Made by a program: the position numbers and the translations under genes. This document shows positions 1-49,157 of a stretch of DNA of 64,000 nucleotides, piece by piece. The notes under the pieces were generated by a model. It saw only the letters and a list, made by a program, of their open reading frames with translations, did no database searches and was not told the DNA's origin. Positions within the stretch are counted from its first letter, which is position 1. Each line of letters begins with the position of its first letter. The stretch is from Buxus sempervirens. Lineage: Eukaryota; Streptophyta; Magnoliopsida; Buxales; Buxaceae. The stretch is taken from assembly GCA_947561395.2 (NCBI GenBank), contig OX387191.1:40179439-40243438 (forward strand), read 5' to 3'.

Positions 1-1090
1 GGGGTGCAGAGATGTTGACATGGAGCGGTTTCTTGGAGGGAGGAGCTTGTACCAGGTTTACTTCCCCTTCTTTCCTGGTTCCGTTCTTCTTGAACCCAGT
101 TCCCTTTTTCTGTGCCAGGGAAGCGGAGGAATCAGATTGCCCGATCAAAGTAGAGTGGTCAATAAGCTTTCCCGACCTGACCCCTTCCTCGATCCGGTCT
201 GCCACCTGCACCAGGACTGCAAAATTGATGGTGATCTGACCCACCAAATGATTGTAAAAGGGCTGGCCCAGCGTGCTTACAAAGGTCGAGATCATTTCGG
301 GCTCCAACATTGGCGGCCTGACCTGGGAGGCAGCCTCTCTCCACCTCTTAGCATACTGCCGTATAGATTCCTCTTTTCCCTTACTTATCTTCATCATGTC
401 GTACCGGTCTGGCACGATCTCAGAGTTGAACTTGTACTAGTCCAGAAAAGCGTCGGCCAGGTCCTTCCACCTCCTGATTCTGCCATTGTCCACAGTGGCA
501 AACCACCTTAGAGCCGACCTGGTCAAACTCCTCTGGAAGAGTTGGATCAGAATGCTGTCATCCCGGCCAAACTGGCACAAAGCCCCACAGTACAATTTCA
601 AGTGGCTCATTGGGCAGCCCGTGCAGTCGTATTTATCAAAGTTCGGGCATTTGAACTTGGCCAGTAGGCATACATCTGGGTACATGCACAGGTCGTCAAA
701 GGTGGTACCTCCATAGCTGTTTCCCCCCTTCACCTCCTTGAGTTCTTCTTGGATCCTCTTTATCTTGTGCAGGAGTTTCTTTTCCATCTCCTCCCTAGCT
801 TTTTCTTTTTCCATTTCCTTCTCATACTCCGCAGTGTTTTCCCTGATCAGAATAGGTTCAGGGACTGGCTCAGAAATGGGTTCAGGCATGGGTTGAGCAG
901 GAGGTGGAATGTAGGCTTGAGGTGGTGGTGCTTGATTGGAGGCTGAGGCTTGGTTTTGGGCCTGGGCCTGTTGGGCCTGAGCCGCCAGTAAGTCTCCTAG
1001 CATCTTGGCTAATCCGGCCACTTGCTCTTGCAGCTGAGCAAAGTCTTGTGTGGGTACAGTGGCTTGAGCTTGATTCTCTTCAGTATTCAT
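1..1090 (-). pseudogene. Ty3/gypsy (Tat-like) gag, partial and interrupted
   Basis: Retrotransposon gag, the structural protein of the virus-like particle. The frame opens at the ATG at 1090 with a Gln/Ala-rich N-terminus, a Pro-rich stretch and a Glu/Lys-rich coiled-coil-like segment. It then enters the retrotransposon gag fold, with motifs LFQRSLTRSALRWF and, past the stop, RQYAKRWREAASQV. An in-frame TAG at 437-439 interrupts it. The same frame continues to the window edge, so this is one nonsense mutation in an otherwise readable gag. The start is supported by the long noncoding leader and LTR directly upstream on the same strand. Pol would lie outside the window. Confidence 0.88.
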
Positions 1091-1271
1091 GGTGCGGGCT
1101 TTTGATTTGGTTACGGGAGCAATGATTGTAAGTAAGTGTACCTAGGGAAGGGAAAGCAAAGAAACATGTCAGCTTCCATTTAACCTGAGTCACACTCCTA
1201 TAAATGCAGATAAGTAGGTTAGGTGAACACCAGTCCAGATTTATTTGTTTTTTTTTAATTTTAATTTTAAT

Positions 1272-1324: not shown

Positions 1325-2237
1325 TTGGAATATTCTAGGGCTTCCAAGGGTCCCACAAGATTTGATTGGTTCTCATGACCAAACAAAAGTTTCTTGGAAT
1401 ATTCTGGGGCTTCCAAATGTCACACAAATTTTTGATTTGATTGGTTCTCGTGACCAAACAAAGATTTTCTTGGAATATTCTGGGCTTCCAAGTGTCCCAC
1501 AAAATTTTGATTTGATTAGTTCTCGTGACCAAACAAAGGTTCTTTTGGAACATTCTGGGGCTTCCAAATGTCCCATAAATTTTTGATTTGATGTTTCTCG
1601 GGACCAAACAAAGGTTTTCTTGGAATATTCTGGGGCTTCCAATTGTCCCACAAATTTTTTGATTTGATTGGTTCTTGTGACCAAACAAAGGTTTTCTTGG
1701 AATATTCTAGGGCTTCCAAGTGTCCCACAAATTTTTTGATTTGATTGGTCCTTATGACCAAACAAAGGTTTTCTTGGAGTATTCTGGGGCTTCCAAGTGT
1801 CCCACAAATTTTTTGATTTGATCGGTTCTTGTGACCAAAAAAAGGTCTTCTTGGAATATTCTGGGGCTTCCAAGTGTCCCACAAATTTTTTGATTTGATT
1901 GGTTCTTGTGACCAAACAAAGGTTTTCTTGGAATATTCTGGGGCTTCCAAGTGTCCCACAAATTTTTTGATTTGATTGGTTTTTGTGACCAAACAAAGGT
2001 TTTTTGGAATATTCTAGGGCTTCCAAATGTCCCACAAATTTTAGGTATGATTGGTTCTTGTGACCAAACAAAGGTTTTTTTTTTTTTTTTGAATATTCTG
2101 GGGCTTCCAAATGTCCCACAAAATTTTGGTTTTGATTGGTTCTTTTGACCAAATAAAGGTTTTCTTGGAATATTCTGGGGCTTCCAAGTGTCCGACAAAA
2201 TTGTGATTAGATTGGAAAAAACAACCAACCAAAGGTT
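1325..2237 (-). repeat. 77-bp tandem repeat array, about 12 copies
   Basis: Units start with ttggaatattctggggcttc and recur at 1325, 1394, 1470, 1545, 1620, 1697, 1774, 1851, 1928, 2004, about 2089 and 2165. The period is 75-77 bp in most copies, 69 in the first. Central copies are nearly identical and edge copies diverge, as expected for unequal exchange. The array sits in the leader of the left element. On the minus strand the consensus lacks stops in all frames, so long spurious reading frames appear. Confidence 0.95.
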
Positions 2238-2515: not shown

Positions 2516-2657
2516 GTATCCGACATGAAATTTCGGCTAAGGCTATGTCTTATTGTATACGATATAAATGATCGGATACATGCATAAGCCTTTGTAACCG
2601 ATAAAGTATGTCGGATACGAATAAAACTCTGTTTAATCGACCTGAGTTGTCGGTTAA
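2516..2657 (-). repeat. Four-hairpin array, 39-bp period
   Basis: Four imperfect inverted repeats of arm 9, loop 7, arm 9 start at 2516, 2555, 2594 and 2633, exactly 39 bp apart. The loops are ATGAAAT, ATAAATG, AAAGTAT and CTGAGTT. Examples of arms are GTATACGAT with ATCGGATAC (second unit) and TTAATCGAC with GTCGGTTAA (fourth unit). Geometry and loop order match the arrays in the family L LTRs at 6229-6370 and 61310-61451, although this copy lies in the leader rather than in an LTR. Confidence 0.85.
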
Positions 2658-4221
2658 TGCCGAAATGGCTTTTTTTGACTCATTTTTTTACCAGATCATG
2701 TTATTTTCATTCCCACTTGATGTTCACTTTGACTTGGCCTTCAAATTTAGCCCCAAATTGGGCTTTGACATCATACTTGCACAAATTTACAAATTCATGA
2801 GGGTACTTGTACCCTCCAAAGTTATACACCAATTCTTGGATTTTGTGTACTTGGTTGACTCTTGCATGGACTTTTGGTAGGATGACTTTTAAATTGAGTT
2901 GGAAACTCATCCTATAGGTTACACCAACCTTAGGCTATATACATTTTTGGAAAAAAATTTCATCTCAAGTATATGGACACCATGGCTTTTAATTTACATG
3001 AAAATGATAAAAAAGAACATTGCTTTACCTTGCCACCTTGTGTTACCTTCAATATGGTATTCATATTATACCTTGGCATGTGAAACATGCAAACGGCCTT
3101 CCCACATTTACACCCAATTCCCCAAATGCAATTGTGTACTTTTAGTTGAAAACGTGTTTCTCCACCTTCAAGCGTATGGTTTTTGGGTTTTGGTTTAATT
3201 GGCAACTTAGAACTCAAATCTAGTGATGTCTGGAATCGAATCATAGATCCCATTGTCATCACATCATTGACTCAAATTCTAAGGTAAATGTTTTCACTTT
3301 CGCTTTCCAAAGTAATGACCTCGGTGTGCCAAGCTATACACATTCGGGTTCAACTTCCTATAGGTAATAGGTAGGCTGTGCAAAGTGTTTATAGTGCTCA
3401 AGTGCATTTTGAATTTTGAGGTACATTCACAACGTCCCAGCCCCTTGCCACTCTTTTTCCTAGCCATGCATACAATTCCAAGCCAAGGCATATGACATTA
3501 TATTGAAAGCAAAACATAAGCAAGCAAGGTAGTAAAAGCAACTCAATATGCACATAATTACTACATACCCAAAAGGCATCATGCAAGCATGTTATCATAT
3601 TGTACAAACAACAATTAAACCATACCAAACATGCTTGAAACCCAAAAGCATTTCCTAAATTTCTAGATTTCATGCTCTTTTTTCTTGCTCAAAGTGTATC
3701 ATTTATGCTCCAAATTAAAGGCCTAAAAATACAACACATATATGTATTGTACAAGAAGGGTTTTGTTGGTGAAAACATGCTTGAAAACCCCCAAAATGGC
3801 TATTGAATTTCCAGAATTTTTTTGCTCATTGCTTTCATGCTCAAATCATGTCATCCTATACCCCCAAATCAAAGGCATGGCATAAAAAAAATCTTAAGCA
3901 CAAGAAAGCATTTTTCATGGAAAACATGCTTGAATACCCAAAATTTACACTAAATTTCCACAAAAAAAAATTCTTTATGTTCAGCTCATGGTATGGAAAC
4001 TCGAAATAACACGTGCTATCACCAAATACCGCAAAGTCATATTACACGATATGCTTTTCCTTAAACATATTTCTAAACACAATCAAGCAACACATTCATG
4101 TGAAATTTTTTTTCATACAAATCAGATTTGAGATGCAACATGCACAAGTAGGAAAAATAGCAAGCATTCAAAAATAAAGAAAAAAGCATGAACAAAACAC
4201 CAAACATGGCTTAAATCCACA

Positions 4222-4241
4222 AGTCCCCAGCGGAGTCGCTA
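4222..4241 (-). other. Primer-binding site of the left Tat-like element
   Basis: On the minus strand the LTR end (TCTCACA) is followed after a few bases by GCGACTCCGCTGGGGACTT, typical of the tRNA primer-binding site of plant Tat/Ogre elements. It marks the LTR to the right as the 5' LTR of a minus-strand element and sets the LTR boundary. Confidence 0.8.
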
Positions 4242-5957
4242 GTTGTGAGACATGGAAAAAGCACCGATGTGATCCCCTCCGTCAACACACGGGCTCAACA
4301 AAAATGTGGGAGTTGCCACCATTCAAATTTAGGGTGTGAACGGACACCAAAAGATTAAAAATAAGCAAAAGACAAATCTGGAGTAAAAATAACTCTACTT
4401 GAAAATCAAATCCAGAGATGGGTAAAGGGATTAGATTATGAATGGGGGAAGGTGTTAAGCACCCCCATTCACCCACACAAGGTGGTTGCCAAGTGTTGTT
4501 CATGCTAAAAAAATGAGAAAGCTTGCTAAAACAATTAAAAACCTTGAAAATAGATTCAACAAATGTGTGATATCTTCACATGAGAAATCCAAATGGATTC
4601 TAGATCCTCTTTTATGTCAATATCACTTTTGGAATATCACCAATACATGGAAATCAAAGAAAAATTGCATAAAACCAAGTTGAGTCAAATCCGAAAAATT
4701 CAGTAAAAGATAGTACCATTTGTCTTAAAATCATTCAAATCCCATTTAAATTGAATCAAACCAAATCATTTGAAAGATTATGATAAATAAGAGACTCATG
4801 CAAAATTTCAATTAAATCTGGTTGAAATCCTAGGAGTTATGCTTCTTTAAATTTTGCTACTGGAGATAATTAAAAGTGACAAGTGGGCAAGTTTGGAAAA
4901 TCATTTAGAAACATTGGCTCCATATAAATCAATGAAATTTGGTGTGAATAAAGTATGTATAGCCATCTTTCAGATGAAACTAGCCTCATACAAAAATTCA
5001 TCCGGATGTGCCATGGGTGACCTCACAAACAGGCCCCGAGGATCACAGATTAACCCAAAAAGGTGCTGTTGAGCAGCTCTAAGTAAATCAGTCGCCCATG
5101 ATACAAATTAAATCAAAAAATTATGAAACCAACTGGATTTAAAAATAGACTCATATAGGAGTGCCCAAAAACAAAAATCACTCGAATCGGATTTAAAACG
5201 AGCAGATGACGCCCATTCAAAGTGATAGGTTCAACAATTTGACCTGAACTGACCTATCAACTTCGACAGAATGGTGTCAAAAGTCCACTTCATAAAAATT
5301 GATGAACTTTTGTAGGTATAAACTAGACAGCCTCACCTTTCCCATAGCTTTGGAATCACTCCAAAATTCATCCGGACGATGAAGTTATGAGTATCCGAAG
5401 TTGGGGTACAGCTGCTGTCCAGTTTTCAAAATCATTTGAAAACCATAAAAATATATCCCAGAATTATTTGGGGCTATTTATTCCAGATATATCACAAGGA
5501 ATGCAATAAATCCGAAATATAAGCCGATTTTGACAAAAATAGGTGCTATGTGTGTATGTAAAAATCAGTTCTTCAATAACACAGCAACATATAACATGCA
5601 TTCATATCAATCAAATGGGATTCTAGAACATCCTAAGGTTCCGTTCCATTCTCGTTTCCCTTAGTTCTCTCTCCCCGTTTAACGGTTCTTCGAGATAATC
5701 TTGGGGTACTTTGAATATGAAACGGTTTCATAGAATCGAAAGGCTTATTCAACAAGGTTCTAACACTAGGATCAATCCTCAGTCTCGTTTCCCCTAGATC
5801 CCGCTTTCACATTTTACCGCTATGGGGAGTCTCGAGGTACTTTGAGTAGAGGAAGGGTTTTCATACACACAGATTAGGCCTTATTCTACAGAAAGGTAGA
5901 AGAAGAGAACTAGACCTAGAATGTAAAGACAGAAAATTTAAAGAAGGATTTAGGCTT

Positions 5958-6228: not shown

Positions 6229-6370
6229 GTATCCGACATATCAGGTCGGATACAAAAGCACCTATATGTATCCAACATATGTCGTCGGATATATTAATGG
6301 CTGCTTATATCCGACAACTTATGTCGGATATAAAGAGGTATGTTTATATCTGACTTGAGTTGTCGGATAC
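6229..6370 (-). repeat. Four-hairpin array, 39-bp period (L copy 1)
   Basis: Hairpin units start at 6229, 6268, 6307 and 6346. Each has a 9-nt arm, a 7-nt loop and a 9-nt arm. The loops are ATATCAG, ATATGTC, AACTTAT and TTGAGTT. Arms share the core CCGAC paired with GTCGG. The first unit has 9 perfect pairs and the third extends to 11. The array lies about 170-310 bp upstream of the TATA box in LTR sense. Confidence 0.95.
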
Positions 6371-6639: not shown

Positions 6640-8087
6640 CCTGTAATATGTGTAAAATCTTTTCAAAGTTAGTGTACAATCACTGTATATATATTACTGA
6701 ATATACATCAATACAAGTGGGGAAACACATTCTCTTTAGTTTGTTCATCGAATGCCACATTGTGGGAGATATATGTCCTTTGAGACATATGATCAAAGCA
6801 ACGATACCTATGATGCTGTGAAGAATAACTATAACTAATAATTAAATATGCATTGTTTGGTACGAAAAGCCAACTTATGTGTTGTATAAGGTCTTAAAAA
6901 TGGACAGCAAGCAAAACCAAATGATCTTAAGAAAGAACGATCTGGTGTTTAAGCACACAATTTAAAATAAGGAGATGAGTGATCTAATATATAGGTGGGG
7001 GAATGCCATTTATAAGATAAATTGTAGGTAAATGTGACTATGCTAACAATGATCATTGTTAAACCATTTTGCTGACCAGTATAAGGACATAAAAGGTGTT
7101 GATGAATGCCACATTTTTTAAGGCCTTGAAATTGACGAGAGAGATACTCACCATAATTATCACATTGAAGTTGCTTGATCATTGTAGAAAAACGATTCTC
7201 AACAAAGGATTTAGAGTTCATAAAATATGAGACAACTTCAGATTTATTTCTAAGAGGGTATAACCATGTAAATCAAGAATTCATCTATGAAAAGAACATA
7301 ATAACAATGACCTTTATAAGATATAATAGGTGAAATCCAAAAATCCGAATAAGTTCCAAAGGAGAAAAAGTAACACGAGAGGATTCACCAAACTGTAAAT
7401 GTTCGGCTTTTCCCATTAAACAAGCTGACAAACAAACTCAAGAATAAAGTATCTTGAAACTGGCAAATCCAAGGACTTGACTACACCTTTGGTGACTTGT
7501 GATGATGGATGACCCAATCTTTCATGCCATATATAAAGGGTGTAGTGTGTACACCTACAAGAGCAATACTTGAACGAAACTAGTTGATGGACTGTAGATC
7601 AACTTGGATAGGGGAAAGCCCATCTTCACTCCAAACTTATAGCGATATTCGTCCGTGAGGTTGTCCTTAACAAAGAAATTACAACAAGTAAGAATACAAT
7701 AGCAATCATTGTCTATACACAAGCGGTTAATAGATAAAAGATTAGTTGAGGCACGTTTTAAGTGAAGAGTCAACTTAGGTGCATGCAATGTGAGTTTACC
7801 AGTATGCTTAATTTTTAAACCATTACCATTACCCACAGAAACCTTGTCATCACCTTGATATGGCTCAGTTAGGTGAAGGTTTTCAATTTATGGTCACATG
7901 GTGATTTGTATCACTTTCAACATACCAAGTGTTGTCACCATGAAAAGAATTGGAGTTTACAACTATAGCGGCCAATAGTTGAGGTAGCTGCCAACCTTGG
8001 TAGTTGTAGTTATAGCAATGGCAACAATCCAATGCCATATGATTTTTCTTGGTGCATATCTGACACACATGCATAGGGATCCAAATT
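6640..8087 (-). mobile_element. Copia-type retrotransposon pol remnant
   Basis: Minus-strand reading fragments match a Copia polyprotein in order. There is a zinc-knuckle-like CQICTKKNHMALDC near 8070-8010, then a GNGNGLKIKHTGKLTLHAPK protease-downstream segment and an LLSINRLCIDNDCYCIL segment near 7830-7660. An integrase-core segment follows, with QLQCDNYGEYLSRQFQGLKK and CPYTGQQNGL near 7180-7070. A degraded SSQHHRYRCFDHMSQRTYIS segment lies near 6790-6750. Frameshifts and stops break every part and no reverse transcriptase remains here. The right side is cut by the Mutator-like element; 6473-6640 is unassigned. Confidence 0.85.
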
Positions 8088-8709
8088 GAGTTGAAATCCT
8101 CTATGACGCAAGTGTTGCGATCCCTCTGACGCAGCTCTATCTGCTGACACGCGTCCTATTTGAGTCTCAAAGCCGATTTCGACGCTAACAGCGTTAACGT
8201 CATCGTCAGCGCTAGGTTAAAACGTCAATACATGAATTAGAAGCGAATTCAACTTTCCCGCTTGAATGTGTTTTATTTTTGATTTTCTTCCTCACTTCCC
8301 CTGCGCACTTACCTCTCTCTTCCATCTCCCATCTATCTTTGTAAATTTCTTCATCTCTCACATCGAAGCAAGACCTGAATTGGAAAATTTATTTTTCTTG
8401 ACAATCTGTTGCCTACCAAGAGTATCACCGTCGATTTCAGTGATCTGGTGCGAATATCGTCTTACCTCTTTCTTGCCTTAATTAGAGCCTACTCCTGAAC
8501 TCAGATCTATTCTCATGGCTTTCAGGTTTGTTTACTCAACGAGTTCCTTTTTTCTCTATTTTGCTCCTTCTCAATTACACTCGATTTGTTCTTACGTCAT
8601 ATATTCTTCAATTCGATCATGTCTGTTTATCTTTTAATTTGGTCACAATTTAATTTGTTTACTGAAAGATCTGCTTGGACTTAAATGAAAACTGAAAATA
8701 TTATTGCTG
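8088..8709 (+). repeat. Left terminal inverted repeat of the Mutator-like element
   Basis: About 620 bp that reappear inverted at 11303-11941 with few differences. It includes a pyrimidine-rich part (about 8270-8350) resembling a plant 5' leader, and a candidate junction AG|GTTTGT near 8525. Both arms therefore carry the same possible promoter-leader facing inward, which Mutator termini often do. Transcription is inferred only. Confidence 0.88.
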
Positions 8710-11302
8710 TAGAGGAGGTTCCTTTTGAAAAAAAGCCTCAAGTATGGTCTGGGACTGGTGGAGGAAAGGTAGACGGATCTGGTCAAGCTTTGGAGCAGCC
8801 AGCCTCCGGTGGTTAATGCCATGATTTTCTTGCTTGGGCAACAAATAAGTTATCAATAGGCATTTAGACATGCGAACATGATGAGATTCCATAGTCTTAT
8901 ATTCTTTGCATTTGTAAGTATTTTCTCAACCTCATTTGTTACTCATGTTTTGATGCATTTATAGTGTAGAAGGAAATTTTGGTTTGTGGACCCATCTAAC
9001 TCGTGAGATTAGTACAAACTGGTACTGTACTTGAGGACTTGCTTGATTTTGTGGTAACTCTTTATTGTAAAAATTTAGAACTAACAGAAGCGAGCAATGA
9101 TGCTGTTGCAAATTCACTCAGATATTTTTGGGTGATTGTAAAACCAAGTTGTTACTAAAGAAGGAAAAACTTTGGTATTTTAGGTCCATCTAATTGTTGG
9201 GTTTTTAGAATGCAGATTTGAATCTGTATAATTGTTGCCTCCTTGAAGGTAGGAGTACCAGAGCTGGGCACATATGCAAAGCGGGAGAAATTAATTTGAA
9301 ATTATCATCAGTACCAATGGCTTGCCAATATCACTTTGTGCAGAAAGGGGTTTCATACAAGCAAATTTTGCTCTTTTTGTGGCGAAATGGAGGATTGGTC
9401 CCTTCTTTCAAGTGGAAGATGGAAGAAACAGAGAACTCAGTTATTTTAGATAGGAAATGTATAGCTTGTAGAATTATTGACACATTTGAATAGTTGCATC
9501 ACTTGCATGTACAATAATTATCTGGTGAAATGGAAGAGCAACTTCATCAGTGGAAATGGCAGGTGATATGTCTTGTACCACAATTCCATTTGAGTAATCA
9601 AACACCAAATGCCTAACGAAATTAAGATATTTTTATACTTGGCGTAAGAACTACCTCGAGCTTTTTCATAATAATAATACCAGGGATATATAATTCTTTT
9701 AATATTTTGCAGTGTGGCAGGAAATAATTCTCATACGATTGAATTCGCATTTTCAAATCACTAATTTATCCGTCACTTCATTTATTGTACATAGGAACCA
9801 TGTCCCCTAAATTTCTTCTCATGGGTAGCAGTTCTCTAGACTCCACGCATAAACAAAAATCTGGATATTCAAAAAGACCAGAGAATTGAAACTTCATGCA
9901 TAAGAGCTGTCCACACCCAATAAAAATGCTGTTCTAACGTGGGTACGACCTGGTCAATTTCATCCAGCAACTCTACTCGCTTCTTTGAGGGGACTTGATC
10001 CGGAAACCTATTTTACAAAACAACAATACATTGGAAGTAAGAGATTAGTTTTATTGACTAATTGAGAATAACATTTTACATGAAAATATACTTATTGCAT
10101 TCTGTAAAATCAAGCAAATTGAATAGCATCCAATCTGACGCCAAACAGAATAGAGATTATTCTGTAGGCTAGTTCGAACAGATGATAAACAGGGAATAAC
10201 ACAAGCAGCTTGCCCAAAACACAGAGAAAAACGTCTCTGAGGTTCAATTCAATATCAATTAATCAAGTCCCCTAAAATCAGTCCACAAGCCGGACTTTAT
10301 AGCCAAAAATCGTCTATACTGGAAAGTTACTAAAAACGGCAAAATCCCTTAAGGCATGCCTAAATAAAATATAGAATAAAATAAGCAACCTATGAAAAAT
10401 CTAGCCCAAATCGGGTTTAAAATCACTTCCTAATTGACAAACGAAGTATTACCAAAAATAGCAACAAATAACTAAGAATAGCAATTCGGAGGGGAAAACA
10501 GCGGAATTTGAGGTCGAGAAAGGTGCACATCGACTTCAGTCATGTAGCATGGCGTGCGCGCCGAAGATATCTTTCCGAATTGGGGTCATATGTGCGATTC
10601 TGATAACTGTAGCCAAAGTTATGGCCAAAATACTAAAACGCACTCAAAACTGTCCCAATTAGAAAGATACCATGATCACCTCCTGCCTTTGCGATGATCT
10701 GCCAACTCATGGTATTCCAGCGCCATCAATGTGCAATCTGATAGCTCAGCATCCTCTGTATCGGATCCCCCTGCATCACAATCAAATGTATGAACGATTA
10801 GTGTATGAGCCCCAAAATTATTGCCCATACAATTCAAGATGAGATACAGTGATTAAATGGTGATTTAGATTTCTCATACTCTGCACACTAACATATGAGC
10901 CCCAACTGTGGAAGAGGAGCTGCAGTGATTAAATGTGATTCCATGCAAGGAAGGATTGGAATTTGTGAGAACAAAATAATACGAATTATAGTCTGTCACT
11001 CTCTCTATCGCTTACTCCGTCTTTATCTTCTTTTATAATAGAGACTAGAGGAATTGAGATAAAGTTCTCTGTTATCTTCTTTTCTACATTTATTCATTCC
11101 TTTCTCTGTAAACAGAATATTCTCATTTTTTATTCCCGAACAAGAACTGAGCAAGCATGCCAAGATATGTGCATATTAGATGTTTTCGTGGGAACAAAAG
11201 AAAAATGTGTTATATCCTATAGATTAGGATTAAGACATGTAAGCATTACGAGCACATTCTTCCAAGCAAGAAAGAAAATCTAATATTTTAACAAAAATAA
11301 TA

Positions 11303-11941
11303 ACAGCAATAATTTTTTCAGTTTTCATTTAAGTCCAAGCAGATCTTTCAGTAAACAAAGTAAATTGTGACCGAATGAAAAGATAAACAGACATGAATTG
11401 AAGAATATATGATGTAAGAACAAATCGAGTGTTATTGAGAAGGAGCAAAACAGAGAAAAAAGGAGCTCGTCGAGTAAACAAACCTGAAAACCATGAGAAT
11501 AGATCTGAGTTCAGGATCTTGAGAGTAGGCTCTAATTAAGGCAAGAAAGAGGTAAGACGATATTTGCACCAGATCTCTGAAATCGACGGTTGTTCATGTT
11601 GATACTCTTGGTAGACAACAGATTGTCAAGAAAAATAAAATTTCCAATTCAGGTTTTGCTTCGATGTGAGAGATGAAGAAATTTACAAAGATAGATGGGA
11701 GATGGAAGAGAGAGGTAAGTGCGCAGGGGAGGTGAGGAAGAAAATAAAAAATAGAACACATTCAAGCAGGAAAGTTGAATTTGCTTCTAATTCATGTATT
11801 GACGTTTTAACCCAGTGCTGACGATGACGTTAATGCTGTTAGAATCGAAATCGGCTTGGAGACTCAAATAGGACGCGTGTCAGCAGATAGAGCTGCGTCA
11901 GAGGGATCGCAGCACTCTTGCGTCGTAGAGGATTTCAACTC
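11303..11941 (-). repeat. Right terminal inverted repeat of the Mutator-like element
   Basis: Reverse complement of 8088-8709 with small indels; for example, a 'gttcat' stretch near 11590 differs from the left arm. The inner edge is where AGCAATAATTTTTTCAG matches the left arm at about 8690-8709. Confidence 0.88.
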
Positions 11942-11950
11942 ATCGAAATT

Positions 11951-12872
11951 GGATCACTTGCCCAAGCATAGACATGGTTGTTTGAAGTGACGTTGCTATA
12001 AGCTTTTTCATGCCATGGCCATGGTTTCTGAGTCGGGAGGGGGAGCTCGTTGGGAGTCCCTCTTCATTTGGAGGTGGGACCCATGTGGAACCATTTGGAG
12101 TGGGGTCCATATGGGATTGGTTACATGGGAATGTCAATCTCTCATTTCCAAGACTATGGTAAGACTGATTACATGGGAAAGGTTGGACATGTGTGGGGAC
12201 TTGGCGTGCATTGATTCCACCTTTGACGACACTTGAAGCCTCTCTTTGGGGACTCGGCAGTTTTTTTAAATGTCATTATAAATTTTGCCACATACACTCA
12301 CATTTTACGGCATTTCAATATGCAGTTATAACATCACTATTATGGCATTTATTTTATGTGCTGTTACAAAATCACCATCACTTGAAGGCTTTAGCGACGG
12401 TCACCAAATGCCGCTAAAAGTATCTTAATTTAAAATAATAATAATAATAATTATTATTATAATAATACACCCCACACCCACACCCACACCCACACCCCCG
12501 CCTGCGGCAACACTCACATCCACGCCCCCACCTTCCCCCTCCCCCAAACCCACCCGCACCCGCAACAGTTACATCCACGCCCCCACTCCACGTTCCACCC
12601 CCAAAAATATACCTTTTTATATATGAAGACCTAATTGCTACATTAGTAAATCAATGACGCATTAAATAAGAGGCATAGTGATCAAGCATGCAGCAAAAGT
12701 AGGAATGAGAATGCATGCCACAGAATCGAACATTGAAATTCATTTGAAATGGGGCATCCCATGACTGTTACAGATTGAAATGAATGAGAACTCTTTTAGG
12801 AAAATCTGTTTGTTTTCACAAAGTCATGAAGGAGCTGGCACCAAGGCAATACATAACCAACCAATATTTCCT
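11951..12872. other. Unassigned stretch with two microsatellites
   Basis: Sequence flanking the Mutator-like element; its first part may still be Copia. Near 12380-12420 the text agcgacggtcaccaaatgcc followed by gctaaaag recalls subterminal repeats of CACTA elements, but no terminus is visible, so I do not call one. An AAT/ATT repeat lies at about 12432-12465 and a CCCACA repeat at about 12470-12500, followed by C-rich sequence. No gene is seen. Confidence 0.4.
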
Positions 12873-20382: not shown

Positions 20383-20536
20383 GTATCTGAAATATAATTT
20401 CGGATACAAAAAGATTTTCGAATATTTTGTCAGGATATTCTAACAGATTTTCTGCAAAAAATTCAATTTTGACAAGACATGTATAGCCAAAATATATACC
20501 ATTTAATCAATGTATCCGAAATTTAATTTCGGATAC
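20383..20536 (+). repeat. Hairpin row upstream of the TATA region (X copy D)
   Basis: Two clear 9-7-9 units: GTATCTGAA/TTCGGATAC around ATATAAT (20383-20407) and GTATCCGAA/TTCGGATAC around ATTTAAT (20512-20536, perfect). A third inverted repeat, CAGATACACAT/ATGTGTATCTG (20362-20389), overlaps the first and could pair in competition with it. The shared arm core here is CCGAA/TTCGG. Confidence 0.85.
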
Positions 20537-21883: not shown

Positions 21884-22014
21884 GGCTGATCCGACAACTC
21901 AGGTTGGATTAGCCCCTTCCTGTGCATAGCCGAAATTTGATTTCGGCTATGCCTATTTTCTGATTTCGGCTACACCCATTTTCTTGTGTGGCTGAAATTT
22001 AATTTCGGCCACAC
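21884..22014 (+). repeat. Second hairpin row (X copy D)
   Basis: Units at 21887-21911 (loop AACTCAG), 21926-21950 (ATAGCCGAA/TTCGGCTAT around ATTTGAT, perfect) and 21986-22014 (GTGTGGCTGAA/TTCGGCCACAC around ATTTAAT). The first two are 39 bp apart. A right arm TTCGGCTAC at 21965 lacks a good partner. This row lies in the part of the LTR downstream of the leader. Confidence 0.82.
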
Positions 22015-29352: not shown

Positions 29353-31280
29353 TGAAGCAATTACTAACCAAGTACTCGGATTGTTTTGCTTGGAATTATC
29401 ATAAGATGCCGGGATTGAATCAGAAAATTGTAGAACACTGGCTCCTAATGAAACCTGAATACAAGCCATTCAACTAACCTTCCAGGAGGATGTCTGATGA
29501 TGTAATTAGTAAGGTTAAAATAGAAATAGAACGGCTTTAAGCGGCCAGGTTTATCAAGCCTATTTGGTATACCGATTGGCTCTATAATATTGTACCAATT
29601 GTTAAGAAGAATAGCCAAATTCGAATTTGTATAGATTTCCGAAATATAAACTCTGCAAACCCCAAAGATGAATATCCCATGTCGATTGTTGATCTACTAG
29701 TCGATAATGCCTCCCGGCATAAATTCTTGTCTTTCATGGACGGACATTCTGGTTATAATCAGATTTTTATTGCAGAGGAAGATGTATCAAAAACAGCATT
29801 CCGGTGTCCGGGGGCTTTAGGGACTTATTGTTGGGTAGTCATGCCTTTTGGATTAAAGAACACCAGGGCAACATACCAAAAGGCAATGAACTTGATTTTT
29901 CATGACATGATGGGCCAAATACTGGAGGTATATATCGATGATGTGGTCGTAAAATCTCACAACAGGATTGATCATTTGTAGCATTAATTATTTGAGCGAT
30001 TACGTAAGTATAATCTGAGGATGAACCCGCTGAAATGCGCCTTTGGTGTTACAGCTGGGTACTTTTTGGGCTTTCTCGTTCATCAAAGGGGGATAGAAGT
30101 TGACAAAAATAAGGCAAGAACTGTCATAGAGGCAAAACCTCAGGCCGATAAAAAACAGTTACAGCGATTGCTCGGCCAAGTGAACTTTTTAAAGAGGTTC
30201 ATTTCAAACTTGGCGGGAAAAACCAAAGTACTGTCTCCTTTGTTAAGACTAAAGGATACCGAAGAATTTATTTGGAATGATGACCACCAAGCCGCTTTTG
30301 AAGAAATTAAACGATACTTGGCCAAACCGCCCGTACTGGTGCCTCCATCCAAAGACCGGCCATTAAAGTTGTATATAGCGGCAACAGAGAATTCAATCGG
30401 AGTCCTACTAGTACATGACAATGACCAAGGATTTGAGCAGGCTATATACTATCTTAGCAGCTTCTTAAGTCCTGTGGAGGAACGATATACCGGTTTAGAG
30501 AAGCTCTGCCTCACATTGTACTATGCAGCGACCAAACTTCGTCATTACCTTCTTTCAGTAAAAGAACTTTACATCATTGCAACTACAGATGTAGTCAAAT
30601 ACATGCTGACGCGCCCAACAGTAAGTGGCCGGTTCGGTAAGTGGACATTGGCTTTGATTGAATTTGATTTTAAGTATGTACCGCAGAAAGCTGTTAAAGG
30701 ACAAGTGTTGGCCGATCACCCATCCGGTATCCAGGAAAATGAACTAGATATCCCGGTTTTTCACGCCGGCTTCTTTTATTTAGAGTTTCAACCATGGAAT
30801 TTGAAGTTTGATGGATCAAAAACAGAATTGGCTTTTGGGATCGGCGTCATCATAATCTCGTCAACCGGAGAAAGACATGAATATGCATTTCAACCTGAAG
30901 AACAATCAACAAATAATCAAGCAGAGTTTGAGGCTTTGATTATCGGCCTAGAAATCTTATGGGAAATGAGTGTTCATGCTGTTACCATCATGGGAGATTT
31001 GCAACTAGTTCTAAAACAAATGGAGGGCCACTATAGTTGCAATAGCGAGATGTTGATACCTTCGCTAAAGAAGGCAAGATTTCTAGCCGAACAATTTAAT
31101 CGGGTGGGATTTAAATATAGGCCGAGGAACGAAAATTGTGAAGCGAATGAGCTTGCTCAAATTGCATCAGGCCTTAGGTTTTACAGCCCGTCTCGAACAG
31201 TGACAGTGCAATCTCTGCCATTTGCCAGAAAGAGATATTTTTTAACAGATTCCCATCCATGTTTCAATCAAACAATATAG
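29353..31280 (+). pseudogene. Element R reverse transcriptase, RNase H and second RNase H
   Basis: Reverse transcriptase runs about 29353-30060 with RICIDFRNIN, VVMPFGLKNTRATYQKAMN and the catalytic YIDDVVVKS (YIDD codons 29931-29942). It is broken by stops near 29476, 29537 and 29979. RNase H follows (30250-30700: LKLYIAATENSIGVLLV, EKLCLTLYYAATKLRHYL). A second, archaeal-type RNase H domain (about 30790-31170: WNLKFDGSKTELAFGIGVII, EQSTNNQAEFEALIIGLEI) is the hallmark of the Tat lineage. The 419-codon stretch 30021-31280 is free of stops. Confidence 0.9.
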
Positions 31281-33364: not shown

Positions 33365-35204
33365 TGTGCAGGCGTAGGAAACGCTACATTGCGAGGCACA
33401 CGGAAGCGCGCATGCCTCCTAAAAGGGTAAAACGATAAGGTTGGAGTCACCACCGCCTAATGGGGTGCAGGCGGACACCTGGGTGCCTAAGCTTGTCTAA
33501 TTTGGTCTGCGGCTTGAGATTCTAAGAAGGGTCTTGGTTACAGTTCAGGGAAGTCCTAAAAATACCCCGGTCCGCCCCATCGATTGACAGGTCCCTAGGA
33601 TTTTCCTGGTTACGAGTCAACTTGGGACAGGGACCTAGGTGTCCCTGTTTTGGTTCTTCATACTCCACATATCAGCAAACATATGAAACAAATGAAACTC
33701 TACCAATCAAGGATACCTTGCATACCTTAAATCATGACGGAGACATATGCATTCATGAGGCTGTGTGTGCTCACATGTGTGGAGCACAAATAGTAGACCA
33801 ACAAAGGAACAACCTAGCATGATTCTAGTGAGGGAGTGCATGCGCATGAGAGCATGTTGGAGGCATGTATGACTTTGCATCAAAAAAACAAAGAGCATCC
33901 TTATTATCCATGGCAGCAACTAGAAGATGTTAAAATGAGGGCATGGGGGATCATGCACTCTCACAAGGCATATGCATATGATCTGAAGTAAGCAAGTAAC
34001 CCCTATCATTAATCCCTTGCTCAAAGCAAACACAAAGCCATTTAAAAGAAACCTATTCGAAGAAGGGAAAGAGGGGGAAGGGGGGGGGGGGGGGGGGTTT
34101 AAAATGGGGTACAAGAGACAAACAAACAAAGGGGGAACAAGCTCCCCCCATTCGAATGAACAGTAAATGGGAACGCAACAGCAACACATCCCCCATATAA
34201 ATCACTTAAGGAGGGACTCTCTCTCCTTTTCTTGGAAGCCATATGTACTCCCCTTACCACGGGAGGCATTCATGTGAGAAAAATGGACAAAAGACATATG
34301 AAGATCATGGTAAAGGATAACATTCAAACAAGAAACACAAGCCCTCTAAAACATCCTTGAAATCACCTCATTTTCATATATGTGAAACAAATAATGGTAG
34401 GGAACAGTACCTTGGGGTTGGAGAACTTGGGGAGGTGTCTATGACCTCCCTTGAAGCACAAAAAGTGGCTGGAGCACCACTTCCTAGCACCAATAGCAGC
34501 CCTTTTTTTGTTCTTTCTTGGATAAAGATGGAGAAGGGATGGAGTGAGGGAGAGTTTTTGTGGATTTAAAGTCTTGAGAATGGAAGAAAAGGGGAGTTCG
34601 GAGGTTCAAGCAGTAGGGGAGACTGAGAAAGATCAGTGGAAAATGGTCATCTTTGTCTACTATTCGGATTTGCCTTTTATAGAACACAGAGACAAAACCA
34701 CACATGCAGTGCGGTTTGGTCGAAACCACAGGGTATGTGCGGTTCGTCCGCGTCTTTTCAGCAATTATTAGGGGACAAACTACCGCAGGCGCAGACTAAC
34801 GAAAAGTGAACCGCACTTACAGTGCGGTTGCTTTTCGTCCACTTCGCGCTGCGATTGGTTGAGTTGACGGCTGAGGTGACTCAGCCGCCCACTCCGGCGA
34901 ATCAAGCTTCTCCCATTTTTTATTATTTCGCATTTATCTTAATTAGTTTAATTAAGATATTTTAATCTTTGACTGATTCGCCCCTGGGACCGTTTTGCTC
35001 ATATCTTTTCCATCCGGGCTCCGATTCCTGCAAACTTAATTGCGTTGGAACCATGTCGAGAATCTCTACTCATTGGGATAGGGTATGGAAATCAATTTGG
35101 GCTCAGCCATAAAGTTACACTTTTGCTCCTTAGGGTTTTAGCCTGTCTTTTAGGGTCTTTTTTTTTCTGCCTTTTAAGAGAGGTGCAAAAATGAGGTGCT
35201 TACA
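33365..35204 (-). mobile_element. Solo LTR, family X copy A
   Basis: An 1840-bp insert, internally deleted relative to the 3.4-3.6 kb copies. On the minus strand it starts TGTAAGCACCTCATTTTTGC and ends with CCTGCACA. Flanking repeats are CGGCT (33360-33364) and TGGCT (35205-35209), 4 of 5 matching. TATA box CTATAAAAGG is at 34673-34682. The leader donor CCCCAAG|GTACTG has its GT at 34409-34410. A large inverted repeat lies at 34800-34837. A run of 17 G (34081-34097) is a likely site of length variation. Confidence 0.88.
34800..34837 (-). repeat. Long hairpin upstream of the TATA box (X copy A)
   Basis: Arms CGAAAAG..AACCGCAC and GTGCGGTT.CTTTTCG pair around TTACA. The same GTGCGGTT word recurs at 34709-34716 (GTGCGGTTTGG). 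This copy therefore has its own arm word, different from those in copies B, C and D, at the corresponding promoter-proximal place. Confidence 0.75.
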
Positions 35205-39151: not shown

Positions 39152-39176
39152 TGATCCGACCTGAGTTGTCGGATTA
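39152..39176 (-). repeat. Downstream hairpin (X copy B)
   Basis: TGATCCGAC and GTCGGATTA around loop CTGAGTT. Outward extension gives GGCTGATCCGAC/GTCGGATTAGCC with one mismatch. It corresponds to the first unit of the second row in copy D and the last unit in copy C. Confidence 0.82.
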
Positions 39177-40586: not shown

Positions 40587-40722
40587 GTATCCGACAACTC
40601 AGGTTGGATACACATATTTATATGTGTATCCTACCATACATGTCGGATACACTATATATTACTGGTGTCCGACCATATATGTTGAATACAAGTAGATAAG
40701 ATCAAATTAAATTCGATCTTAT
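40587..40722 (-). repeat. Hairpin row 12 bp upstream of the TATA box (X copy B)
   Basis: Units 40587-40611 (loop AACTCAG), 40626-40650 (loop CATACAT) and 40665-40689 (loop CATATAT) are exactly 39 bp apart and each 9-7-9. A fourth inverted repeat, GATAAGATC/GATCTTATC (40695-40722), has a 10-nt loop. Arm core CCGAC/GTCGG or GTTGG. In LTR sense the row ends about 12 bp before the TATA box. Confidence 0.9.
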
Positions 40723-42247
40723 CCACTTTACAGCTGTTATTCAACGCATTCTCCATGTGCGAGAATTGTTGATATTTTATTTTTTTATTAAATTAAAATA
40801 TTAGATAATTATTATTTTATTTTTAGATTTTTTATTTATTGTCCTTTCTTTATTCTTTGCCACATGGGCAGTTTTTTCGGGATTTTGATCTGCTTATAAC
40901 TCTTTCATCCGGACTCCAATTCTGGCAAACTCAATGGCGTTGGAATCAGGCCGGAATCCTCTATCCACTGAGCCTAAGTTTAGTAGCAAATTCAAGTTTT
41001 TAGCAGAAGGCCGAAGTCGCGTCTGGAATCTTAATCTGCTCATATCTCCTTGATCTGGGCCCCGATTCCGGCAAACTCAGTTGCGTTGGAATCGTGTCAG
41101 CATTTTATTTCCTTTGGAACAGAAATAGCAGTTAATCTGGGTTTGAACAGAAAGTCAATTTTTGCTCACCCGAGACTTGTTTTGCTCATAAATCCTTCAT
41201 CTGGACTCCGATTCCAGCAAACACAGTTGCATTGCAATTGTGTCAGAAATCTCTATCCGCTGGGATAAAATTGAGCAGTTGATTCAGCTTTTAGCAGAAA
41301 AGCAAAACTTCTCCCCATGAGCTGGTTCATAATTCTCTTTCTGGGACTCCGATTCCGGCAAACTCAATTGCGTCGGAATCGTGTCGAGATGCTCTTTCTG
41401 CTAGGACAAGATTGGGTAGCTGATCTGGGGTTTAGCAAAAGGTCGATTTCTGCTCCCCTCAGGCTTGACCGGCTCATAACTTCTTCATCTGGACTCCAAT
41501 TCAGGCAAACTCAGTTGCTTTGGAATCGTGTCGAAATTTCCTATCCAATGGTAAGAAGCATGGTGGTTGATTTGCACCAGATCAAAAAGTCAACTTTTTG
41601 CCCCCTTGGGATTTGACTTTTCAGTTAGGGTTTTCATTTTCGGCACTTTCGATGTGCAAAAATGAGGTGCTTACAATACCTTCAACAAATATGTTCATAT
41701 CTTCAAAGTTTTCGTCTGCCATGGCTGATGAAAGGTAGAAAAAAGCAAATAGTTGTAGGAAGAAGATAGAGGGAAACGGAGGCAAGGAGGAAGAAAGGAT
41801 GGCTCAAGAAGGAGGGAAAAATTTGAAATCATTACTGTATCGGGAAGGGTTTAACCGAATCGATATAGCGGTTACCTGCCCAAGGTAATTGATATGACGG
41901 CTCGAAATGGTACCATTGATATGTTTCAAAGTAAGATCTAACGGACAGAGAGAACGACTGATTCGGAAAGGATAGGTTGAGATAGCAAATCTCGCCATAA
42001 AGAAAGGCTGATTTCACTGGTTAGGGCAGTTATTTTGATGGACGTAAAAAAGTTATAAAATTTACCAAATCCATTAATTTTGTTCAAAATGAAATATTTA
42101 CAAAGTCCGAATATAATTGGTTGAAAGACTCTTGGGCAAACCGTCTCTCATCCAACAACCCGGCTTGACGCAACGCCGAACCACGAGAAGACTGTGCTTC
42201 AACTTCCAAGTCATAACCTGCTTCCTCACATTGGCGCGTTTTTTCCA

Positions 42248-45063: not shown

Positions 45064-45300
45064 GGATGAAAAAGGACAGAGAAGAACAGTGAAAAGCAAA
45101 CGGAATATGCAGAGTGAAAGATGAAGTTACCAGACTTGATTTTAAATAGACGCGTCAAAGGATGAAGCTGACGAGATCACGATCATCCCAATCATGGGAT
45201 GAAGTTGTAAGAAATTGAAAAACGACCGTTTATCTACGGTTAGAAAAATTTTTTTTGAAAAACTAAATACTTATTCATTACTTTGACGGCGTAATAAGTA

Positions 45301-45750: not shown

Positions 45751-48700
45751 TGTGCGTACCCGATTTCGGTCGCACGACGAGGAGCACGCAAAACGATGCG
45801 TGCCTCAGGATTTGTTTGGAGTCGCCACTGCCTGATGGGATGCAGGCAGACACCTAGGTGCCTGAGTTTGTCTATTAAGGCTTGGTCTGCGGCTTGAGAT
45901 TCTAAGTAGGTTCTCGGTTGCGATCTGGGGAAGTCCGTAGACACCCCAGTCCACCCCATCAAATGACGGGTCCCATAAGTTTCCCTGGTTTGAGTCAACT
46001 CAGTTGGTCTCTTACTCACCCGATGCCTAATCCAGCATTCAATTTTGGTTAAGTCTGGCGGGACCGCCAAAGTGGTGTGGGTCCCTTTACTTGATTTTAT
46101 CTTCTTATTATTGAATGAAGTGAGTCTGATTGGGTGGGCCCCGTTGGAAGGCCCACGGATCCCTTGGTGGGCTTGGTTGATCCCACGTGTCCCTTGGTGG
46201 GCCTCAGTCTAACCTGAGAGGCCCTTTGGGCTTTGGTTCAAGTGAATTGATTTTACTTTAAAGTTTAAGTTGAATTTAAAGTGATTTTTATGCAAAGGTG
46301 GGCCGGGTTGACTTGCGGGCCCCTGAGTGGGCCTCGGCCTGGTTGCCAAGTGTTTTGAGTTTATTTGGGTTAATCTTTGCCAAAATGGGCCAGGCTTTGG
46401 GCTTGGGGCCCTTTACCTGGGCTTGGGCTTGAAAGCCCAAGGCTTATTGAGTTAGGGTTTTGAAACCCTAACCTTGGTTGGTTAATGGGCTTGGTGGGCC
46501 CGATAGGCCCTGCCCTTTGACTCGGCCAAACCATATCTAAGTCTAGATCAACATGCTTCAAAATTGGGATTGGGTGAGCCTCCAATGGTGTGGCCCACTC
46601 AAATGGATTGATTTTATCTTTATTTAACAAAAGGAGTTTGTCGGGCTTGGTGGGCCCCGTTGGAAGGCCCACCAGGAATCAATTTGGACCGAGTGTCCAA
46701 GGCCCATCTTGGGTTTCCGGGTGACCCGGAAACCCTTCTGGTTCTTTGATCAAATGAACCAAAAAAACAACACAAGATCACAAAACAGCAAAAATAACAA
46801 TCTAGCTGTGTAGCCGGTTACACATAAGTCTTAGTGTATCTGGCATCTTTTGCCGGCTACAAGTGGGCCTTTGTTGATCTGGCCTGAGTTGCCAGATCAA
46901 CCTACAAAAGCCAATTTTTCGGATTTTTGCCTTGGGGTTGGATTCTTAGGCTCCTTGGGGTGTTTCAGTAGTTGTGTGGGCCCCTGTGGGGGCTCACAAT
47001 GATCCGGATGAAGCCATTTGGCTTCTTCTTTGGGGTTTTCAAAACCAAACTCAAAGGGAATGGGTGGGGGCTCCCCATCCTTCTTTCTCTTGCAATGTGA
47101 CCAGCACCTAAACAGGGATCAAGCTTCCCTGTTTTGGGTATCTCATGCTCAAAAAGGGACAACCATGGTACACAAATTAAATAGCCAAACAATATGAGAC
47201 ATGCTTTAATAGGTAGGTTTCATATCAAGATATGTGAGTGCATGTTATTGTACTTAAAAAGTGTAGAAAACAGATTTTATAATGGCATACCCAGAAAACT
47301 TAAACATGCTATTGACATGAGAACAAGTGAATGAGCAAGTGGGACGGATAGTAAACCAAGTAGAGTGATTCCATGGAGCCAAAATCAGCAACTTAATGGG
47401 GTGAAAACATCGTGATCAAACATGCAAAATAACTAGCAAAAATGATATACTTGCATGGTTTAAAAGTAACAACATATATGCTCCATATAGAGATAGATCC
47501 ACACATCCGCAAAGTAACAATCTAATCATATAAAAATAAAAATAAAATAAAAAAACGTACCTAGCATGCACCATATGTTGTCCTAACTTACCCACTTAGT
47601 TTAAGAATATAATATCCAAGGAAGGGAAAAGAAGGGGGTTTACTTGGGGGATACATTAGACTTGCATTAGAGGAACATACTCCTCCTTTAAGTGGAAAGA
47701 AACCACTAACAACACAGCAGCTTTACACTAAAAAATACAGCAAACCTACAATGACCTTTAGACCATTTAGATCAACTAAGGAGTCCCCTCCTCCTCACTT
47801 TAAACTAATGGAAACTTACCTTCCTTACCTTAGAAGAGTGATGATCCATAAACGACATGAAGAGGTAATAATACAAGAGGAAAACATCCATAACATGCAC
47901 AAACAGAATATTATAGCATCTTTGAGGACTTACATGCTCCAAATAAACTCATATTTACATATGTTAAAGAACATGGCCCAAGAAAGCTCACCTTGGGTTT
48001 TGACCCCTTGTAGAAGATGTGTGGAGCCTCCTTGGAGCTAGGACCAAGGCTGGAGCCTCTCTTGGCACCACCAACAGCAAGCCTTCCCCCTTTGCTTGAG
48101 TGAGAGTGGAGAAGAAGAAGAAAAACAAGAGTGGGAGAGCCTCCAAGTAATGTTTGGAGGGCTTGGAAGGCAAGGAGGGGTGGAGAAGCTTGGGAGAGAG
48201 AATGGAGCTTGTGGGAGAGATGGGAGAGATCCCCAAAAAATATCAGCCGATCCTTTGGTTGGAGTTAGGGTTTCTTTTTATAAGGCATGACCAAAAGAGA
48301 ATTATTCTTGCACTTCATCACCAAAACCCTAATCCTTTTTCATCCATGCCCCTTTTTTAAGAAAACCAATGATGGAGTTAGGGTTTGCTTGGACGAATTC
48401 TCCACATGGAGAATTCGGCCAACCATTTATTTTTTATTTTTATTTTTTTCTTTATGTACTTGATTCATTTGCCCTTTTTTATTATTATTTTATTAAGATC
48501 TTTGTTTTATGCATCTTTTAATTTTCTTTTCTTTTTCTTTTACTTTAAATACTTTAATTGGATTTTTAGCAAAAATATTATTTTTTAATTCAAAACTTTT
48601 CATTTTGCTGTTCTTTCTTCACTGTTTGCCACGTGTGCAGATTTTTCAGAAACTTTAACCGCCCACAACTCGCTCGTCTGATATCCGATTTTAGCAAACT

Positions 48701-49157
48701 TAGTGGCGTTAGAATCAGTGCGAGATTCCTTATTCACTGAATTTCAGTTTAGCAGCAAACTCGAGTTTTTTAGCAGAAGTGCTGGGCCACGTCCGGGAGC
48801 CGATTTTGCTCATATTTCCTTATTCGGGACTCCGATTCCAGCAAACTCAGTTGCGTTGGAATCGTGTTGAGATGCTCTTTCTGTTGGTATCAAATGAGGT
48901 AGCTGATCTGGGGTTTAGCAGAAAGTCAATTTCTGCTTTTCTCAGATTTGACCAGTCCATAAGTTCTTCATCCGGACTCCGATTTGAGCAAACTCTGTTC
49001 CATTAGAATCGTATCGGAATCCTCTTTCCAATGGTAGGAAGCATGGTGACTGATTTGCACCAGATAAAAAGTCAACTTTTTTACTTTCTCAAGTTTGACT
49101 TTTCAATTAAAATTTCATTTTCTGCATTTTGGGAGGTGCAAAAATGAGGTACTTACA
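45751..49157 (-). mobile_element. Solo LTR, family X copy C
   Basis: A 3407-bp insert in the LTR of element R. On the minus strand it starts TGTAAGTACCTCATTTTTGC and ends GGTACGCACA. Flanks are ATGTG (45746-45750) and ACGTG (49158-49162), 4 of 5 identical. TATA-like TTATAAAAAG is at 48274-48283. The leader donor ACCCAAG|GTGAGC has its GT at 47990-47991. A hairpin row lies at 46797-46900 and a palindrome GAATTCTCCA/TGGAGAATTC at 48395-48416. Confidence 0.9.
46797..46900 (-). repeat. Hairpin row (X copy C)
   Basis: Units 46836-46860 (GTATCTGGC/GCCGGCTAC around ATCTTTT) and 46875-46899 (TGATCTGGC/GCCAGATCA around CTGAGTT, perfect) are 39 bp apart. A right arm GCCGGTTAC at 46813-46821 fits a third unit at the same spacing whose left arm has decayed. 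The arm core in this copy is CTGGC/GCCGG or GCCAG. Confidence 0.85.

Follow-up and report, generated by a model that had tools for sequence, protein, structure and literature searches.

CCG-N11-CGG dyads in fixed-step rows, candidate operator arrays in the control regions of Tat-lineage LTR retrotransposons of Buxus sempervirens

A stretch of 64,000 nucleotides of Buxus sempervirens (contig OX387191.1, positions 40,179,439 to 40,243,438 of the forward strand; hereafter the window) is a nest of elements with long terminal repeats (LTRs) that carry rows of short inverted repeats (Table 1). Two of these rows, in the LTR copies L1 and L2, sit in the U3 region of a Ty3/gypsy LTR family, the L family, whose copies begin with TGTAGACACCCC; an exact 18-nt LTR start has 9,336 copies in the genome against 0 for the control. 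The L-family LTRs end in TG...CA, and they have a 5-bp target duplication and a stretch resembling a primer-binding site past the 5' LTR. The sequence directly after L1 is GCGACTCCGCTGGGGAC, which we take to be a tRNA-primed primer-binding site. Two separate copies elsewhere in the genome encode RVT_3 and rve (L215) and Retrotrans_gag (L213), which places the family in the Tat lineage of Ty3/gypsy by domain content, the first RNase H lying outside the L-family stretches read. Another element in the window encodes RT_RNaseH_2/RT_RNaseH and RVT_3 (29988-31277). An open reading frame (ORF) with a plant mobile domain (PMD) lies at 37428-37937, and a second one, below the Pfam cut-off, at 44677-45126. 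Besides the two rows in L1 and L2, six further arrays and a third LTR copy (L3) were found in the window.

The first-pass annotation described the rows of L1 and L2 as four hairpins each, with 9-nt arms, 7-nt loops and exact 39-bp steps, and all eight units and their eight loop sequences were recovered as described. It also stated that the arms switch as a set between the copies, which is what we found: the inner arm letters (positions 8 and 9 with their partners) are 0.94 alike within a copy and 0.06 alike at the same position between copies. The statement that the loops stay fixed was too strong, as 21 of 28 loop letters are the same between the copies and 7 differ. Loop identity is 0.75 at the same position between copies and 0.38 between units of one copy, and the spacers show 0.64 and 0.48, respectively. 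The arms are alike within a copy and unlike across copies, while loops and spacers show the reverse, which indicates that centres and spacers are inherited by position. The number of Watson-Crick pairs per unit, out of nine, is 9, 7, 9 and 7 in copy 1 and 9, 9, 7 and 7 in copy 2; that is, all nine pairs are intact in four of the eight units and the other four keep seven. Between the copies, 8 base pairs were altered on both sides, all 8 being Watson-Crick in either copy, and another 8 were altered on one side only. The pattern GTATCC...GGATAC occurs 7 times in the window (0.03 expected from shuffles). A search for GTATCC-N6..16-GGATAC across the 676.5-Mb genome gave 34,722 sites, where the control with the pattern reversed gave 545, and every one among the matches listed is the 25-bp form.

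The conserved object is a DNA dyad, CCG-N11-CGG, usually four per row at 39- or 28-bp steps, rather than the 9-7-9 hairpin; the hairpins of L1 and L2 also fit it. The dyad occurs 19 times in the window (2.25 expected in shuffles), 13 times in the units described here and 6 times elsewhere, and in a scan of spacings from N=0 to N=40 N=11 is at the top, followed by N=22 with 11 and N=10 with 10 occurrences. We extended the count to 93 U3s, comprising the three of the window and 90 genomic ones picked by the exact 18-nt LTR start regardless of hairpins. The 90 all lie within 2.2-9.4 Mb of contig C1 and were taken from 100 places listed (30 loci and 60 fetched); six of the ten places left out are members of a single 15.3-kb tandem series. 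As related copies lack independence, the permutation p-values given below are guides. As a separate observation, eight family LTR starts at equal steps of ~15.32 kb on one strand (G000:C1:8464680-8571951) look like a tandemly amplified element or segment.

Within bp 60-400 of the 93 U3s there are 302 CCG-N11-CGG dyads, where shuffles gave a mean of 3.8 and a largest value of 10 in 100. Other spacings between N8 and N15 have at most 6 (N9 1, N10 0, N12 6, N13 0). Further peaks at N4 (24), N17 (34) and N24 (110) probably stem from the step of the repeat or from the half-site word. At least one dyad was present within the first 400 bp in 90 of the 93 U3s, the commonest number being four (47 of 93), and a chain of two units was absent in 6. 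Successive dyads are mostly 39 bp (114 cases) or 28 bp (44) apart. These two periods leave about equal remainders over 10.5 bp, and with only two of them a common helical phase is suggestive at most. Three L subfamilies keep the dyad with unlike flanks, namely TATCCG at 39 bp, GNCCGTA at 28 bp and AACCGCA at 38 bp, and the half-site logo is ~7 bp wide. The array of L3, of the 28-bp type, has no similarity to the L1 and L2 arrays that could be detected within the array itself. Decay of the core is symmetrical, C-to-T and G-to-A, with 7 CTG and 7 CCA among 58 half-sites. A dyad scan of a collection of viral contigs gave 0 matches. At least 118 prokaryotic stretches in public contigs contain the dyad; the 80 listed each have one palindromic place, both strands being counted, and they were taken as chance and not used.

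The rows are not restricted to U3. Two LTR starts with matching arrays (L134 and L135) lie 20.5 kb apart and were read as one element of ~22 kb, and its leader before gag has a second row of four dyads (L213: 1582, 1621, 1660 and 1699). The leader array of the L1 element in the window is the equivalent of this row. In L214, an element of the 28-bp type, the leader row also steps by 28 bp, with dyads 745 and 801 intact, 773 decayed, and 829 and 857 seen by eye. The U3 and leader rows are 3-4 kb apart, and they agree in word class and step in six of the seven elements with a leader row; the set comprises the window, L213, L214 and rows in 4 of 12 fetched stretches, among which L216, L218 and L224 are concordant and L220 is discordant. 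The agreement extends to the letter after the core. The window element has A there in all half-sites (8/8 in U3, 8/8 in the leader), two other elements have G throughout (8/8 and 8/8), and in three more T is found in 7/8 U3 and 9-10/10 leader half-sites (totals 16/18, 16/18 and 17/18). Unit A of the leader has its own outer letters: in A-type as well as G-type elements these are TTAA or ATAA, where U3 has GTAT or ATAT. These outer letters are kept while the inner letter switches, which means that the row was not replaced and speaks against one row having been copied wholesale from another. Between the dyad row and gag, leader tandem repeats of ~71-77 bp were also seen in two elements (window 1325-2215; L213 2060-3150).

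A third row lies in the region between integrase and the 3' LTR, where antisense ORFs are found. In L215, four dyads precede the antisense ORF at 3751-4389, and the last dyad is 16 bp from the TATAAA of GCTATAAATGC. We fetched five more stretches, and three of them were positive (L228, L229 and L230). The exact 16-bp gap to GCTATAAATGC is thereby present in 4 of 6 stretches, which are all four with a four-dyad row; L231 has two dyads and no TATA, and L232 has one stray dyad and no row. An antisense ATG follows 117-118 bp past this TATA, opening a frame of 166 codons in L215, at least 147 in L228, at least 146 in L229 and 54 in L230. The post-core letter of the third rows is G in 8/8, 7/8, 8/8 and 8/8 half-sites (L215 and L228-L230), and a 28-mer spanning the dyad and TATA has 145 places against 0 for the control. 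In the window, the U3-like promoters of the second LTR-like family (F2) have gaps between last dyad and TATA of 16 bp (F2a and F2d) and 15 bp (F2c).

The antisense ORF of L215 at 6225-6998 matches the plant mobile domain (E 4e-14), and the one at 3751-4389 matches DUF7745 and PMD, both below cut-offs (E 8e-5 and 1e-4). The product of the ORF at 2540-3436 has, by eye, a long charged, coiled-coil-like tail through which it could form a dimer. Among the five antisense ORFs of L215 only PMD/DUF7745 or nothing was found, with no TRP28 (PF04195) at E up to 0.1, and none matched NCBIfam, a prokaryote-oriented library. Two antisense ORFs compared with solved structures had no match.

The first-pass annotation took the paired change of both arms as evidence that pairing itself is maintained. 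We separated pairing from word sharing after dropping near-identical arrays (53 to 27 in the 39-bp set, 26 to 18 in the 28-bp set and 8 to 6 in the 38-bp set). In the 27 distinct 39-bp arrays (96 units) the arms do covary: the fraction of paired units is 0.89 at position 8 and 0.78 at position 9, and it falls to 0.65 and 0.46 when right arms are exchanged among arrays with the unit position kept (p=0.0002 each). Exchange of right arms within an array barely lowers pairing, from 0.94 to 0.93 at positions 1-4 (p=0.37) and from 0.89 to 0.85 at position 8 (p=0.09). On the LTR tree, parsimony over 43 arrays gave one-sided against two-sided changes of 11 to 3 at position 8 and 22 to 4 at position 9, and independent compensatory evolution of each hairpin was rejected because one-sided changes dominate. 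The sister subfamily (window 63215 and genome) is without a 9-bp stem and retains CCG-N11-CGG. In its 18 arrays of 28-bp step (63 units) the outer four positions pair at 121/252, and no position group pairs significantly better within units than after swapping; nor was there a significant excess in the 12 units of the 38-bp set, where power is low. Word sharing accounts for most of the arm covariation; what remains at the level of the unit, at position 9, is real. Maintenance of base pairing as such is therefore not upheld. The best part of the earlier reading is its remark that all units of a copy share a word as if it were read by something: among the 29 units of the window set, sharing within arrays is 0.85 for the inner word, against 0.364 when permuted, and 0.72 for the outer letters, against 0.53.

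The word follows clades on the LTR tree. The placement of L129 there, among 39-bp copies although its own row has a 28-bp step, is due to another LTR start 268 bp downstream. Two ancestral haplotypes, which the first-pass annotation named as a possible full explanation, account for most of the difference between copies 1 and 2, which is mostly a clade-level switch, but not for a few independent later changes. Intermediate steps are preserved in unit A, as GGT/GCC (L139, L140), GGA/GCC (L171, L180, L181, L187) and GGA/TCC (most of that clade). Unit B of that clade has an A.A mismatch in most copies, with GGA/TCC only in L178/L179 in this sample. Neutral CpG decay as the source of words was rejected, since the copies with the CCGAC word are separate insertions that form a clade.

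Fixed spacing, a ~7-bp logo, promoter-proximal placement and one word per element resemble the binding sites of a dimeric protein. On these sequence features, the rows are probably operator arrays for a putative dimeric DNA-binding protein, located in the control regions of a large Tat-lineage (Ty3/gypsy) retrotransposon superfamily. Observed directly are the geometry, the sharing of a word within and across rows, and the placement relative to TATA; we infer a protein reader in dimeric form, which would act on transcription, and antisense ORFs that would be expressed as genes. What looks like a hairpin would be a double-stranded site, with inverted half-sites of ~7 bp centred on CCG and 11 bp between the cores. 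Rows would serve at U3 upstream of TATA, in the leader ahead of gag, and upstream of the TATA facing the antisense ORFs, at a distance of 16 bp. One protein recognising the half-site word of the element would bind all of them, and might couple the sense and antisense promoters by activation or by protection from silencing. As the word drifts, the half-sites in all rows would follow, so that the arms would change jointly, with centres and spacers passed on by descent. On this model a shared half-site word would explain the joint change of the arms, and hairpins are not required.

The reader may be the element's own antisense-encoded protein, although we hold this for somewhat less probable than its opposite. 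The words, being private and fast-changing, and the presence of a row at its putative promoter would fit such a reader. We offer tentatively, and with a similar leaning to doubt, that an antisense-encoded dimeric regulator of the PMD type that has a coiled-coil tail binds private dyads at U3, leader and its own promoter, and that protein and word co-evolve so that each subfamily is self-specific. If true, this regulator would be the LTR-retrotransposon counterpart of the VANC system.

Several results weigh against the interpretation as operator arrays. The leader row is absent in 7 of the 12 fetched stretches, and L227 has a single dyad of another word. In L220 a 28-bp GCCCGTA row (1252-1445) lies 3.9 kb downstream of an AACCG-type LTR start, and it is the one discordant leader row if both belong to a single element. 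Position 9 pairs at the unit level beyond word sharing (within-array swap 0.78 to 0.63, p=0.0002), and the outer flanks of the window set show a weak unit-level excess (p ~0.04 each); this is more than a pure half-site model needs. The centre AACTCAG, or its complement, is kept in one unit across otherwise unlike arrays (window 2633, 39152, 46875, 21887, 40587 and 61427), which a simple half-site model does not explain. Short tracts appear to be copied between units, and by eye unit B resembles the left arm and centre of unit A in many copies; it means that some homogenisation is mechanical. F2a and F2d are related to each other, so their 16-bp gaps are not two independent cases. In the U3s of the L family, row and TATA are farther apart: for the 38/39-bp set the distance is 160 bp in 36 of 59, and for most of the 28-bp set it is 202-212 bp.

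Among known systems, the tandem BII boxes of Tnt1 are reportedly U3 enhancers of a plant LTR retrotransposon, short, partly palindromic and upstream of TATA, and the rows described here are similar in all these respects. We know of no private co-switching word in Tnt1-type boxes, and of no copies of them at a leader or antisense promoter. VANDAL/VANC is the closest working analogue. VANDALs are Mutator-like elements (MULEs) of Arabidopsis, whose proteins bind rows of family-specific motifs in non-coding regions, both diverging together, according to portions of PMC5735166 and PMC10398659. The present rows are likewise short, family-specific, non-coding and diverging together, but they are strict fixed-spacing dyads in an LTR retrotransposon, unlike the MULE DNA transposons; no homologue of VANC was shown, though none was searched for. 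For the VANC motifs YAGTATTAY and AGTTGTCC a tandem-repeat arrangement is reported, and the text of PMC5735166 nowhere has the word stem "palindrom".

Retand, Grande and RIRE2 reportedly have, as a hallmark, antisense accessory ORFs located between pol and the 3' LTR, and these are suspected regulators: nuclear location and an own promoter are given for Grande gene23, DNA binding is predicted for TRP28, and a regulatory role has been proposed (portions of PMC11963269 and PMC7264820). Those portions name no target site, whereas here a candidate target array is found at three places. Unlike the Retand type, the antisense ORFs here match the plant mobile domain, one above and one below the curated cut-off, and not TRP28. 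The host genes MAIN and MAIL1 also encode a Pfam plant mobile domain; their mutants have down-regulated genes with a common 'DOWN' promoter motif, and the portion of PMC7156037 seen claims no binding to CCG-N11-CGG. Such dyad rows in an LTR retrotransposon are not described in titles and abstract openings found in the open-licence PMC literature, and the portion of a paper on enod40 (PMC10578108) was unrelated. Operator rows on the scale of a genome, with strict geometry and a switchable word, would provide a defined DNA bait for the question of what the antisense genes target. The natural words and their intermediates would also allow study of how a mobile element shifts the specificity of its own control system.

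The strongest alternative is that a host transcription factor family reads the dyads, and that the words track the host factors exploited by each subfamily. Rows at U3 and core-promoter positions agree with this, and no domain described as DNA-binding was found in the five L215 antisense ORFs (Pfam and NCBIfam). Stress-responsive LTR enhancers are said to be a parallel. However, the words diverge between close subclades (GAC, GGT, GGA, GGC) and the rows of one element switch together, which a private reader fits better. We know of no plant factor with a CCG-N11-CGG site, nor did a full-text literature search find this string, and both count against a host reader, which we consider unlikely though far from negligible.

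It is quite improbable that there is no reader at all and that reverse transcription simply maintains the likeness of tandem palindromic repeats, by template switching, quasi-palindrome correction or gene conversion. In its favour, word switches are mostly clade-level, and short conversions between units A and B were apparent by eye in L132, L171 and L134. Centres and spacers, by contrast, stay unhomogenised, with loops less alike between units of a copy than by position between copies. In addition, rows 3-4 kb apart have a common inner letter with their own outer letters, the subfamily with a non-aligning array retains N11, and the 16-bp TATA gap recurs at the antisense promoter and in F2.

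RNA hairpins, with the array acting in the element RNA (3' U3 and leader, for example in packaging or stability) and pairing under selection, are very improbable. The rows do fold far better than shuffles, with z of -11.7 (L1) and -11.1 (L2) and -3.4 to -8.5 for four others, the whole L1 row is an inverted repeat (74% over 144 bp), the leader and 3' U3 would be part of the genomic RNA, and position 9 has unit-level compensation. But this compensation is seen at position 9 of the 39-bp subfamily only, N11 is constant in three subfamilies while the 28-bp one is without stems, and a third row lies upstream of an antisense TATA box. Among sense-strand pairs that are not Watson-Crick, G.U does not exceed A.C, with 23 against 29 (39-bp), 23 against 57 (28-bp) and 12 against 12 (window set). 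A scan of the window with Rfam gave 0 matches at the gathering threshold.

Another alternative is that the tandem rows escape DNA methylation directed by small RNAs, as has been suggested for the target repeats of VANDAL in a portion of PMC10398659. This could explain the diverging words and the symmetrical core decay without a co-evolving reader, but it leaves the constant CCG-N11-CGG and the promoter-proximal positions unexplained and seems hardly probable.

Table 1. LTRs, dyad arrays and the gag-like frame in the window
Feature	Position	Strand	Description
gag-like ORF	437..1141	-	downstream of leader array; no Pfam match alone; by eye its protein matches the start of the L213 gag ORF
Leader array of L1 element	2516..2657	-	four dyads, 39-bp step; post-core letter A in 8/8 half-sites; weak fifth repeat at 2477
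LTR L1	4244..6472	-	begins TGTAGACACCCC; read as 5' LTR of a leftward-running element; PBS-like stretch follows
U3 array of L1	6229..6370	-	four 25-bp dyad units at 6229, 6268, 6307, 6346; 39-bp step; half-site word TATCCGAC
F2c upstream dyads	20383..20536	+	dyads 20383, 20512; word TATCCGAA; last 15 bp from TTTAAA
F2c second array	21887..22012	+	dyads 21887, 21926, 21988
Array of F2d	34694..34831	-	dyads 34811, 34726, 34698; word AACCGCAC; last dyad 16 bp from TATA
F2a single dyad	39152..39176	-	centre AACTCAG
Array of F2a (second LTR-like family)	40587..40689	-	three dyads, 39-bp step; last dyad 16 bp from TATA
F2b dyads	46836..46899	-	dyads 46875, 46836; words CTGGC/CCGGC
LTR L2	59278..61541	-	solo LTR; 5-bp target duplication CAACA
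U3 array of L2	61310..61451	-	four dyad units at 61310, 61349, 61388, 61427; half-site word TATCCGGT
LTR L3	63215..64000	+	L-family LTR start; cut by window end; word and step differ from L1/L2
U3 array of L3	63319..63419	+	dyads 63319, 63347, 63403, decayed one 63375; 28-bp step; word GCCCGTA

Other features of the window were noted beside the rows. The F2 family has imperfect repeats of 146 bp at 40887-41555 and 48803-49038. Long inverted repeats at 8075-8710 and 11303-11958, 91-96% complementary and separated by ~2.6-3.2 kb, have the appearance of DNA transposon or foldback element termini. An ORF on the minus strand at 53590-54273 resembles, by eye, a 2-oxoglutarate-dependent dioxygenase and is probably a host gene.
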